A stretch of 64,000 nucleotides of DNA, taken from an uncultured Bacteroidota bacterium (GTDB lineage: Bacteria; Bacteroidota; Bacteroidia; Chitinophagales; Saprospiraceae). Under the pieces are notes generated by a model. The model was not told where the DNA came from and made no database searches. It saw only the letters and a list, made by a program, of their open reading frames with translations. The stretch's first letter is position 1, and the number at the start of each line of letters is the position of its first letter. This document shows positions 30,200-33,983 of the stretch, piece after piece. The translations under genes were made by a program, and so were the position numbers. Where the stretch lies: NCBI GenBank assembly GCA_937872515.1, contig CALMSX010000082.1, forward strand, positions 1 through 64,000. The letters run 5' to 3'.

Positions 30200-31396
30200 A
30201 TGAATAACCGCAACATCAATTTTAAAACTTTATGTGTAATTGAGCATAAAGATACAAAAACTACCCCTCCTCATCAACTGCCCATTTATGCTACTTCTTC
30301 TTTCGTTTTTGAAGAGGTGGAAGAAAGCATTGAAATCTTTAAGGGCAACAAAACCGGCCACGTCTATTCCAGATATGGCAACCCTACCATAGATACGGTG
30401 GCAGAAAAAATAGCAGCTATGGAGGGTAACGGCTGTGAAGAAGCGCCCTTTGCTTTCCTGACTTCCAGCGGGATGTCAGCCATCAGCACATTGTTGTATA
30501 CCCTTCTCAATGCCGGTGATGCCATCTTAACCCAGGCCAATATCTATGGAGGCACTACTGAGTTGTTTAACAAGGTTTTGTCCCGCCACGGCATCAGTCC
30601 TGTTTTTGCCCGATTTGATCAAATGGAGGAATTGGAAAACATTATTGTCAACCATCCTGGCATCAAAGCCATCTACCTCGAAACGCCATCTAATCCCACC
30701 CTTGACTGTGTGGATCTGCAAGCCATTTCCGGTTTGGCCCAAAGGCATGGCCTTTTTACGGTGATAGACAATACCTTTTGCACTCCTTATCTGCAACAGC
30801 CTTTTTTATTTGGAATTGATTTTGTTATCCACTCTGCTACCAAATACCTCAATGGCCATGGCAATTCTCTTGCCGGTGTCATTTTGGGAAGAAACAATGA
30901 ACTCAAGGCGGCTGTCAAAACCACTTTGAAATTGATGGGTGGTACCTGCAATGCATGGGATGCCTGGCTGCTGAACAATGGACTCAAGACCCTTGCCCTG
31001 AGGATGGATGCTCACTGCAACAATTCTATGAAATTGGCCGCATGGCTAAATAATCATCCGAGAGTAACAAAGGTCAATTATATCGGACTTCAGAATCATC
31101 CTTTCCATGAGATTGCAACTAAACAAATGAGGGCTTATGGAGGTATGCTAAGTTTTATGGTAGATGGTTCAATGGCAGATACTTTTGGGGTAATCAACAA
31201 ATTGTCGTTGTGCACGCAGGCGCCTACCCTCGGAGATGTTGATACCCTTATTCTACACCCCGCATCCAGCTCTCATCTCAACGTGGACAAAGAGTTGAGG
31301 GAATCGTTTGGCATTACGGATAACCTGATAAGGGTATCTGTAGGTATTGAAGATATCAATGATATAATTGCTGATTTCGAACAGGCACTTAAATAA
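30200..31396 (+). CDS. Cys/Met metabolism PLP-dependent enzyme (trans-sulfuration family)
   Basis: A 398-residue fold-type I PLP enzyme of the cystathionine synthase/lyase and O-acetylhomoserine sulfhydrylase family. It has YSRYGNPT (about 56-63), the cofactor-stacking region SSGMSA, the PLP-ring aspartate in TVIDNTFCTPYLQ and the Schiff-base lysine in SATKYLNGHGNS (about 211-222). The C-terminal LPAS-like segment LILHPASSSH and IRVSVGIEDI are conserved. The active-site cysteine of methionine gamma-lyase is replaced (YGGTTELF), which argues against that activity. Cystathionine gamma-synthase, gamma-lyase or a sulfhydrylase all remain possible. It is transcribed alone from its own promoter. 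Confidence 0.87.
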   Translation: MNNRNINFKTLCVIEHKDTKTTPPHQLPIYATSSFVFEEVEESIEIFKGNKTGHVYSRYGNPTIDTVAEKIAAMEGNGCEEAPFAFLTSSGMSAISTLLYTLLNAGDAILTQANIYGGTTELFNKVLSRHGISPVFARFDQMEELENIIVNHPGIKAIYLETPSNPTLDCVDLQAISGLAQRHGLFTVIDNTFCTPYLQQPFLFGIDFVIHSATKYLNGHGNSLAGVILGRNNELKAAVKTTLKLMGGTCNAWDAWLLNNGLKTLALRMDAHCNNSMKLAAWLNNHPRVTKVNYIGLQNHPFHEIATKQMRAYGGMLSFMVDGSMADTFGVINKLSLCTQAPTLGDVDTLILHPASSSHLNVDKELRESFGITDNLIRVSVGIEDINDIIADFEQALK

Positions 31397-31462
31397 AAAA
31401 GCCCCGGAGAAAGAATCCTCCGAGGCCACCCGAACGCTATGAAAAATTAAAGTACTATCTCT
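31395..31462 (-). ncRNA. Candidate small RNA, copy 1
   Basis: Read on the minus strand, a perfect -7 box is followed by about 67 nt ending in a strong hairpin and a T run. The stem arms are 31401-31409 and 31418-31426, with 8 of 9 positions paired, an 8-nt loop and then six T. The segment 31395-31463 is identical in all 69 positions to copy 2. No open reading frame with an ATG fits inside. The 5' part (about 31427-31462) is AU-rich and predicted unstructured, with a GC-rich GCGTTCGGGT patch just before the terminator. It matches no RNA family I recognise. Confidence 0.6.
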
Positions 31463-31474
31463 GCTGCAAATATA
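31395..31474. repeat. Direct repeat unit, copy 1
   Basis: The 69-nt core (31395-31463) is identical to 31592-31660. After three differing bases, CAAATATATA (31467-31476) is also shared with the other copy. Homology stops at the T-run side, and the 117-nt stretch between the copies is unrelated AT-rich sequence. Confidence 0.95.
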
Positions 31475-31498
31475 TAGCAATCAAATTTGTTGTAACAA
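31467..31498 (-). promoter_or_regulatory. Promoter of candidate small RNA copy 1
   Basis: Minus strand: TTG (31496-31498), 21-nt spacer, TATATTTG (31467-31474). It fits the Bacteroidota consensus, with the same spacer length as copy 2. Confidence 0.6.
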
Positions 31499-31591
31499 AA
31501 AAAATGAATTTTTTTTTGAAGATTCAGTAAATTTGTTTGTAAACATTTTGTTATCAAATGATTATGAAAATTTTGGATTTCCAATAAAAAC

Positions 31592-31659
31592 AAAAAAGCC
31601 CCGGAGAAAGAATCCTCCGAGGCCACCCGAACGCTATGAAAAATTAAAGTACTATCTCT
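31592..31659 (-). ncRNA. Candidate small RNA, copy 2
   Basis: This copy is identical to copy 1 over 69 nt. It has the same hairpin (arms 31598-31606 and 31615-31623) followed by six T on the minus strand, and its own promoter. Expected transcript start is about 31658. The sequence next to the -7 box and the -33 region differs from copy 1, yet the spacing is the same, so the promoter seems maintained rather than merely copied. Confidence 0.6.
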
Positions 31660-31671
31660 GACACAAATATA
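31592..31671. repeat. Direct repeat unit, copy 2
   Basis: Second copy of the element described at 31395-31474, 197 nt further along in the same orientation. Confidence 0.95.
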
Positions 31672-31695
31672 TATTAATTAATAGGGAAAAGTCAA
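31664..31695 (-). promoter_or_regulatory. Promoter of candidate small RNA copy 2
   Basis: Minus strand: TTG (31693-31695, in CTTGAC), 21-nt spacer, TATATTTG (31664-31671). Confidence 0.6.
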
Positions 31696-31737: not shown

Positions 31738-32115
31738 ATGAAATGGATAATTACTTTGTTATTTGTTTTTACAAGTCTTGCATTCACCTGGTCTCAAGCT
31801 GATTCTACCCGCATAGATTCTGTTTCCTATCAACACGAATGGCAGGTCAAGGTCTTAAATTATCGAATATCGGGCCGGACAGCTTCTGGTGTCCACACGA
31901 AAAGGATAAAAGAACCTTTTGTAGCCATTTCCCGCGATTTACTCTCCGCTCTGCCTTTGGGGTCTTACATAGAATTGTCAGATTGCCTATGGGCCGGTAA
32001 ATACAGGGTGATGGACAAAATGGGCAAACGGCACACCAATGCCATCGATGTATTTTCTAAGAAAAAAAACAGAGGCATTCAGTACTGCCGATGTAAATCT
32101 GTTGAAAGTAACTGA
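31738..32115 (+). CDS. Exported 3D-domain protein
   Basis: A 125-residue protein with a cleavable signal (MKWIITLLFVFTSLAFTWSQA). The mature part reads like the 3D (three-aspartate) domain related to the double-psi barrel of MltA and YocH/Rpf enzymes: YRISGRTASGVHT, FVAISRDLLSALPLGSYIEL (about 60-79), YRVMDKM and NAIDVF (about 100-105). The aspartates of the DKM and IDVF motifs are the presumed catalytic or structural ones. A role in peptidoglycan binding or cleavage is possible, but domain-only proteins of this size are uncharacterised. It converges on the amylase gene with a 2-nt gap. Confidence 0.78.
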   Translation: MKWIITLLFVFTSLAFTWSQADSTRIDSVSYQHEWQVKVLNYRISGRTASGVHTKRIKEPFVAISRDLLSALPLGSYIELSDCLWAGKYRVMDKMGKRHTNAIDVFSKKKNRGIQYCRCKSVESN

Positions 32116-32117
32116 AC

Positions 32118-33983
32118 TTAGATTTTTTTCATCACAATACCGGAGTAAGCAGAAAAAACCAGCTCTTTTTCTTTCATCTCAACGCCAGTGCTGAAAACGG
32201 GTTTAAAACCACTGACCTGATCGATGTTGATTGTTTTTGAATTGGGCTCTGCATTGATTAAAACCATCATTTTTTCATCATCTGTTTCTCTGCTATAGGC
32301 CATGATGCCACTACCGGCCAACTCCCTAAGAAAGGCATAACTGCCCTTTTGTAATGCTAGGTGGCTTTTCCTCAAGTGACAGAGCGAAACCATGTAGTCA
32401 AATTGCTGTTGGTCAAAGACCGGTGTATCCACATACTGGCCACCTCTGACGTCTATTGGCGTTTCAGGCTTCATTTCTATGTCTTCCCAACACAATGGCT
32501 TTCTGTTATCGGGATCGTCAGCACCCCACATTCCCATTTCGTCGCCATTCCAGATGTGAGGAGCCCCTTTAAATGTAAATTGATGCAACAACACCACGTT
32601 CATTTTTTGTTTGGCACTGGCATCCGGCCGACCTGTTTTATAATTGGGGTTTTCGGCTGGCTTGCTGTGGAATTTGTATTTATTGGAATTGTAAAGAGCG
32701 GATAAAATCCGTTCTGAATCATGAGATGAAACCAAATTCATCATCGCATCCTGAGTGCCTGGCCTGTACTTTTGGTAAATACTATCAATCTGATCATAAA
32801 ACGCTGTAAGACTGATTTTGTCATCCCCCTGGTTTACATAACATCTTACTGGTTTAAACCACTGATAGTGCATTACTGCATCAAATACATCACCTTTTAC
32901 CCAGGGTTCTGCATCCATCAATTCATCCGGCCATTTGGTCCACCAGTTTTCACCAACCAGGTAAAATTCATCATTAATGCCTCTTACATGTTTGCGCAAA
33001 TCTCGCCAAAACCCAAGGGGTACATGTTCTGCTACATCCAAACGCATGCCATCGATGCCATCATCCGGATTGCCATCATTGTTGGGATCCATCCAGCGCT
33101 GGCACACGGCAAAGATGTGTGACTTAACCTCATCAGGCATATTTCCTTCAAAGGGATGACCGAATTTTTTTTCGGTGGCCCTGATTTTTTTAAGTTCCGG
33201 CATCGTTTTTACACCCAGCCAGCCATCGTACTCCCACTCATTGGCAGAGGTTGCCGGATCATCAAACGATTTGATTTCATACCAGGAGGCAAAGGGTGAT
33301 GCCTTTCCTTTTTGAATGATGTCCTGAAAAGCCCAAAACTCAGGACCTGTATGGTTCCATGAATAATCGAGCACTACTTTTATCCCGGCTTGATGCAATT
33401 GGCGGATGACTTCAACAAATTTTTTATCCGCACTGGTCCACACCCAGGTTGCAGGATTGGCAGGATCTTCTTTTTTCATAAGGGCAATATCTCCATCCCT
33501 GTCATCACCAAAATTGACATCTATGTGGTGGTAATTTCGGGCATCGTATTTGTGCAGGCTGGGTGAATCATTGAGTGGATTAAAATAGACTGCATTGATG
33601 CCCAGTTTTTGAAGATAGGAGATTTTTTGCAAAACTCCCTCCAGGTCGCCACCATACCTTCGCATTTGAATGGTGCGGTAAAAATCGAGCCCTGTTTCTT
33701 TTGCCCATGCTTCCTGTTCATACCAGTTGTGATTCCATGGTGTTACGGACCAACTGGCAGGAATAGAATCCATCAAAGCTCCTTTCATGGTTTCAAGGGT
33801 TGGGTCGTTGGCAGGATTGCCATTCCTGAATCGCTCAACAAAAATTTGATACCATATCGCCGAAGATGCCCACCCAGGGGCTTCATTCAATTTTGCCATT
33901 TCGTTGGATTTGTTTTGGTTAGACTGGCACGAAACGACCAGAATGATGAGAACAAAGTATATAAATGAAACTACACTTTTCAT
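32118..33983 (-). CDS. GH13 alpha-amylase-family lipoprotein
   Basis: A 621-residue glycoside hydrolase family 13 enzyme on a lipoprotein signal (MKSVVSFIYFVLIILVVSC, Cys 19). The four GH13 regions are present: VVLDYSWNHTG (about 202-212), GMRLDVAEHVP with the nucleophile aspartate (about 309-319), LVGENWW with the acid/base glutamate (about 336-342) and LVSSHDSERI with the transition-state aspartate (about 412-421). The N-terminal IWYQIFVERFRNG resembles neopullulanase or cyclomaltodextrinase-like enzymes. Action on starch-like or malto-oligosaccharide glucans at the cell surface or in the periplasm is likely. A SusC/SusD operon 16 kb away is not linked to it. Confidence 0.88.
   Translation of the reverse strand: MKSVVSFIYFVLIILVVSCQSNQNKSNEMAKLNEAPGWASSAIWYQIFVERFRNGNPANDPTLETMKGALMDSIPASWSVTPWNHNWYEQEAWAKETGLDFYRTIQMRRYGGDLEGVLQKISYLQKLGINAVYFNPLNDSPSLHKYDARNYHHIDVNFGDDRDGDIALMKKEDPANPATWVWTSADKKFVEVIRQLHQAGIKVVLDYSWNHTGPEFWAFQDIIQKGKASPFASWYEIKSFDDPATSANEWEYDGWLGVKTMPELKKIRATEKKFGHPFEGNMPDEVKSHIFAVCQRWMDPNNDGNPDDGIDGMRLDVAEHVPLGFWRDLRKHVRGINDEFYLVGENWWTKWPDELMDAEPWVKGDVFDAVMHYQWFKPVRCYVNQGDDKISLTAFYDQIDSIYQKYRPGTQDAMMNLVSSHDSERILSALYNSNKYKFHSKPAENPNYKTGRPDASAKQKMNVVLLHQFTFKGAPHIWNGDEMGMWGADDPDNRKPLCWEDIEMKPETPIDVRGGQYVDTPVFDQQQFDYMVSLCHLRKSHLALQKGSYAFLRELAGSGIMAYSRETDDEKMMVLINAEPNSKTINIDQVSGFKPVFSTGVEMKEKELVFSAYSGIVMKKI

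Follow-up and report, generated by a model that had tools for sequence, protein, structure and literature searches.

Two tandem segments at positions 31395–31463 and 31592–31660 of the window, which comprises the complete stretch of 64,000 nucleotides analyzed from an uncultured member of the Saprospiraceae, probably represent sibling genes of one regulatory RNA of about 68 nt, each equipped with its own promoter and terminator. Judging from comparison, it is well supported that this pair of sibling sRNA genes is real, previously undescribed and of a known kind. By analogy to characterized systems, the RNA is best read as a new family of sibling sRNAs that is restricted to the genus and would act in trans in the manner of GibS and FopS. 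Trans-acting sRNAs of the Bacteroidota were worked out mainly in gut Bacteroides, and the best-studied members of this phylum lack Shine-Dalgarno sequences. If the proposed interpretation is true, multi-copy sRNA control would extend to another order of the Bacteroidota, namely to environmental Saprospiraceae. Moreover, identical bodies combined with different promoters would offer a compact test case for sRNA gene duplicates that were kept.

The two segments are identical across exactly 69 nt and extendable at neither end, while the ungapped identity of their flanks amounts to 47% upstream and 35% downstream. The preliminary description had reported two identical 69-nt segments separated by 117 unrelated nucleotides, and both statements were reproduced; the latter refers to positions 31475–31591, reaching from the end of the copy 1 -7 box to the start of the copy 2 69-mer. 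On the minus strand, both units share the layout TTG-N21-TATATTTG-N3-C, followed by AGAGAUAGUACUUUAAUUUUUCAUAGCGUUCGGGUGGCCUCGGAGGAUUCUUUCUCCGGGGCUUUUUU. Based on the position of the -7 box, the A residues at 31462 (copy 1) and 31659 (copy 2) were predicted as +1 sites. Hence, the 69-nt segment begins one base before the predicted +1, and the repeat unit corresponds almost exactly to the predicted transcript. For copy 1, the predicted RNA of 68 nt occupies positions 31395..31462 of the minus strand, with its 5' end at 31462 as deduced from the TAnnTTTG box (PMC9723704) and its 3' end at 31395 within the T run; this prediction is supported by the identity to copy 2 and by copies in two other species. 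The copy 2 RNA, also predicted to be 68 nt long, occupies positions 31592..31659 of the minus strand, and its body is identical (69/69) in the source genome (G000; 4.71 Mb, 124 contigs) and in the two other species carrying the element (G190 and G240).

The consensus of promoters recognized by the primary sigma factor of Bacteroidota comprises TAnnTTTG at -12 to -5 and a weaker TTTG/TTG near -33 (PMC9723704, PMC7366714). The -7 boxes TATATTTG, read directly at 31467..31474 (copy 1, minus strand; conserved in G240) and found at 31664..31671 (copy 2, minus strand; conserved in all three species), fit the sigma-A motif TAnnTTTG, and this canonical box is present at 7/7 copies. The -33 TTG of copy 1 (31496..31498, minus strand) lies within TTGTT-N2-AACAA, a small inverted repeat that G240 retains, and the block TTGTT-N-CAACAA is common to G000 and G240. 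The corresponding TTG of copy 2 (31693..31695, minus strand) is located within CTTGACTTTTC, which is conserved in three species; in this promoter, CTTGACTTTTC and TATATTTGTGTCAGAG are invariant and the bases in between are variable. Direct reading agrees with the earlier claims that a TTG-N21 box with equal spacer precedes both copies and that the -33 flanks differ in sequence while position and spacing are kept, the blocks being copy-specific and each of them conserved. Since each copy possesses its own conserved -33 region, the same product appears to be encoded behind promoters that were kept separately. Leftward transcription of each copy would start at a separate primary-sigma promoter with TTG at -33 and TATATTTG at -7.

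Fold prediction placed an intrinsic terminator hairpin of 12 pairs, seven of them G-C, at 31400..31427 (minus strand) in copy 1, followed by six T residues at 31395–31400. For copy 2, terminator search and fold prediction located the hairpin at 31597..31624 (minus strand). In general, the hairpin is G+C-rich, comprises 10–12 pairs and a 4-nt loop, and is followed by TTTTTT; hence, the six T noted previously were recovered, but the stem, described as 8/9-paired, is longer, with 12 pairs. Four terminator-like matches were detected in 461 bases versus 0.3 expected from shuffles, and each transcript would end at its own intrinsic terminator. The whole RNA reached fold energies of -21 to -22.5 kcal/mol, with 5/200 shuffles being as stable. 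The hairpin pairs barely vary, so that they yield no evidence from covariation. Upstream of the hairpin, an unstructured 5' arm of 34 nt (AGAGAUAGUACUUUAAUUUUUCAUAGCGUUCGGG) extends across 31429..31462 in copy 1 and, with the same sequence, across 31626..31659 in copy 2 (both minus strand). This presumed seed showed a predicted fold of only -0.2 kcal/mol (185/200 shuffles at least as stable) and is invariant in 7/7 copies. Within the predicted transcript, neither an AUG nor a closed small ORF from any start codon was found; the only in-frame alternative start is a GUG in the hairpin, and its reading frame runs through the terminator, which is in line with the earlier statement that the segments have no coding capacity.

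Sibling sRNAs are recognized by at least two highly similar genes per genome, and the source genome harbors three copies of the element, two of them identical and in tandem and the third located at C86:17471–17555 (L002; about 4984–5052 in L011). Compared to the tandem pair, copy 3 is changed in the terminator loop only, where GGAGAAUUCUUAUCUCC replaces GGAGGAUUCUUUCUCC while the stem is kept. It possesses its own TATATTTG, with a spacing to TTG of 18 instead of 21 as in the tandem pair. In order to search for relatives, the covariance model R1 of the element was run over samples of 398 genomes of the family and 398 genomes of the order. Strong matches were obtained only in G000, G190 and G240, i.e., in 3/6 genomes of the genus, and blastn against the family sample likewise returned the element in the same genus only. 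No other convincing copies were found in these two samples, and none were found in the three other genus members, including the surroundings of the corresponding neighbor genes. The 37 weak covariance matches outside the genus in the 398 family genomes, mostly to terminators, were about what is expected by chance (at or below about 5e-4 to 0.05 per genome, with 20 expected at 0.05), and an order-level match (L165) was rejected as a terminator match.

Among the three carriers, copies reside at corresponding loci as deduced from synteny. G240 features the tandem pair with +1 sites 198 bases apart, compared to 197 in G000, its second copy being cut by the contig end. In G190, equivalents of copy 2 and copy 3 are present, and the place of copy 1 is occupied by a gap of 100 N (L015:5804–5903 / L010) reaching from the Cys/Met enzyme gene into the inter-copy region; this gap probably represents an assembly break caused by the repeat, as expected for near-identical repeats. 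The copy 2 body is identical (69/69) in every pair of the three species, whereas pairwise identity amounts to 71%, 63% and 54% across the 103 bases preceding the promoter and to 66%, 67% and 41% downstream. The neighboring 125-aa protein and its orthologues share only 76% and 58% identity. An unchanged body beside flanks of 41–71% identity indicates that the element does not evolve neutrally. The proposal of selection on two sRNA genes rather than a simple repeat was thereby strengthened, as the 69-nt body remained unchanged next to flanks differing by 29–59%, and it is further backed by the conserved promoter elements, the variable spacer and the tandem pair in a second species.

The closest known system is FopS of B. 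thetaiotaomicron, which is encoded in 14 copies, appears as bands near 65 and 70 nt, carries its single-stranded seed at the 5' end ahead of a terminator, binds the start codons of SusC-type mRNAs and is counteracted by the RRM protein RbpB (PMC11697453). The element resembles FopS in size (about 65–70 nt, here predicted as 68), in a single-stranded conserved 5' part directly before an intrinsic terminator, in the canonical TAnnTTTG promoter, in its occurrence in Bacteroidota with RRM proteins in the genome, and in several near-identical copies per genome that are mostly intergenic with one in a 3' UTR. In contrast to FopS, three instead of 14 copies are present, two of them are arranged in tandem, and the host belongs to a different order; moreover, the element matched no Rfam model at E values up to 10, and no SusC-type target is supported here. 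GibS likewise uses a single-stranded 5' seed at start codons (PMC7366714), and the element would share with it the nature of a trans-encoded sRNA whose extended unstructured 5' seed pairs around start codons, which is predicted here. GibS differs in being a longer, single-copy RNA with two seeds and a non-canonical promoter, and no sequence match between GibS and the element was found. Furthermore, tandem sibling sRNAs such as PrrF1/PrrF2, OmrA/OmrB, AbcR1/AbcR2 and NgncR_162/163 are known (PMC4211561, PMC9973317). These, too, are near-identical sRNA genes that lie side by side and possess separate promoters and terminators, allowing for redundancy or differential control; however, they belong to other phyla, are unrelated in sequence and are mostly linked to Hfq, and the bodies described here are 100% identical.

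The design shared with FopS and GibS favors a trans-acting sRNA pairing with start regions. According to this proposal, the invariant unstructured 5' arm would act as the seed that pairs with mRNA start regions in trans, identical bodies would provide an additive dosage of one regulator, the differing and separately conserved -33 blocks might let the copies answer different signals, and an RRM protein may serve as partner of the sRNA. The complement of CUAUGAAAAAUUAAAG forms part of the arm and would suit the start codons of M-K-N/K genes. The target search extended to 8% of the genome and used a few seeds. For the 291 start regions taken from one contig, the predicted duplex energies were no better than those of shuffled RNAs. 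The exact pattern ATGAAAAANTTAAAG occurs twice in the genome: one site overlaps both the end of a gene for a hydrogenase large subunit and the putative start of the gene that follows, and the other does not coincide with the start of any listed ORF. With up to three mismatches allowed, the three carriers contain 19, 16 and 18 sites matching the 18-nt complement (element copies included), compared to 34, 24 and 20 sites for the reversed control, and since these sites are fewer than in the control, there is no excess. Sites of the AUGAAAAAUU type were no commoner than the reversed-pattern control in the three carriers. A site before an RluA-type gene that is conserved between G000 and G190 is explained by the coding of the upstream gene. 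The start codon of a secreted-protein gene on C115 pairs with the sRNA arm in 2/3 carriers; this pairing (site C115:6531) is kept in G190, but not in G240. The gene itself (G000:C115:5578–6546, L176) encodes a 323-aa secreted protein that has no Pfam match and occurs only in the three carriers within the genus. Based on the null duplex energies, the site counts relative to the controls and the conservation of the candidates, no target is supported.

This lack of target enrichment would also be expected if the predicted RNA acted by protein binding, e.g., as a sponge or decoy for RRM proteins, instead of mRNA pairing, an explanation considered unlikely. The arm is AU-rich and does not vary at any position, as might also be explained by a protein site, and a preference for AU-rich RNA is known for RbpB of B. 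thetaiotaomicron (PMC11697453). Moreover, the number of RRM genes tracks the presence of the RNA within the genus: two RRM_1 proteins are encoded in each of the three carriers, and one, one and none in the three non-carriers. However, RRM proteins are thus present also in species without the RNA, the invariant stretch of 34 nt is long for one protein site, and the target search took in just the small share of the genome and the few seeds given above. Since the carriers are three related genomes, the association between RRM proteins and the sRNA has no statistical weight and is regarded only as a lead. In G000, the RRM_1 genes are located at C121:69931–70140 and C112:32284–32493, one of them encoding a long glycine-rich, arginine-containing tail.

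Regarding the genomic neighborhood, copy 1 is arranged tail to tail with a gene for a Cys/Met-metabolism PLP enzyme (30200..31396, plus strand; PF01053, E 3e-128), whose stop codon overlaps the copy 1 T run by 2 nt. Copy 2 is divergent from a gene encoding a 125-aa secreted protein of unknown family without Pfam match (31738..32115, plus strand). A secreted alpha-amylase with a weak SusG C-terminal match is encoded near the sRNA pair at 32118–33983 of the window, on the same strand. Copy 3 lies on the same strand as an S49 peptidase gene, 47 nt past it, and could therefore also act as the 3' end of this gene. This position, the tail-to-tail arrangement of copy 1 with its stop codon overlap, and possible distant relatives in 3' UTRs (L046, L059/L061; see below) would agree with a 3'-UTR or terminator element, or with a cis-antisense RNA for neighboring genes. 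Such a role is very unlikely, as the neighbors vary between loci while the RNA is constant, the overlap with coding sequence is just 2 nt, and a 3' UTR is excluded for copy 2, which possesses its own promoter and is flanked by divergent genes.

That identical copies occupy more than one locus would also be accounted for by a small mobile or REP-like element or by a functionless duplication of recent origin, which is considered extremely unlikely: the scattered distribution that the preliminary description had named as an objection was not observed, as only three copies occur in 4.7 Mb, at corresponding loci in other species, identity ends at the predicted transcript ends, and no match was obtained in the phage, plasmid or viral collections searched. 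Hardly any probability is likewise left for a role as leader or attenuator of an operon further downstream, as suggested by the hairpin with T run and a weak sub-threshold resemblance to leader families. This reading is contradicted by the gene order, since no co-oriented gene lies downstream of the element at any locus (the next feature is copy 1 for copy 2, the antisense strand of a gene for copy 1 and a convergent gene for copy 3), and all Rfam leader matches scored far under gathering. Among 4227 Rfam models, none reached its gathering score in the window and nothing credible appeared at E<=10 in the element, consistent with the initial impression that no known RNA family is recognizable; a match to a known attenuator family, named beforehand as an objection, was likewise not obtained from Rfam.

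Sibling trans-acting sRNAs restricted to one genus thus remain the preferred interpretation. A broader version, namely an undescribed Saprospiraceae sRNA family whose invariant 34-nt arm acts at the start codons of several mRNAs in a phylum without Shine-Dalgarno sequences, with an RRM partner and distant relatives turned into 3'-UTR elements in other genera, is tentative and rather doubtful. Three weak matches outside the genus share the arm and a terminator. The match at L046:1501–1581 (minus strand) combines the arm-like AGATAGTACGTTAATAGTTCATAG (21/24) with a terminator of different sequence, is situated 3' of a secreted-protein gene and features CAATTTTG near the -7 position. The matches at L059:1501–1573 and L061:1501–1572, from two genomes of one other genus, contain the arm-like AGATTGTACATTAACTTTTTCATAG downstream of fabH; here, AAAGATTGTACATTAACTTTTTCATAGC, close to the sRNA 5' arm, precedes the terminator, and no -7 box is visible. 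By chance, about 0.03 arm matches of 21/24 next to a terminator are expected in the sample, a rough estimate for which composition and terminator number were assumed. A search outside the genus for the core pattern with two mismatches and no terminator gave no clear excess over the reversed control; for this reason, and as they were picked after looking, L046 and L059/L061 are leads only. Furthermore, a conserved 3' UTR was observed in G000 (C65:24206–24267, L078) and G190 (C171:17201–17262, L076), in which AAAGATATAGTA... is followed by a GTCCCGG terminator and whose weak resemblance to the sRNA is probably due to chance.
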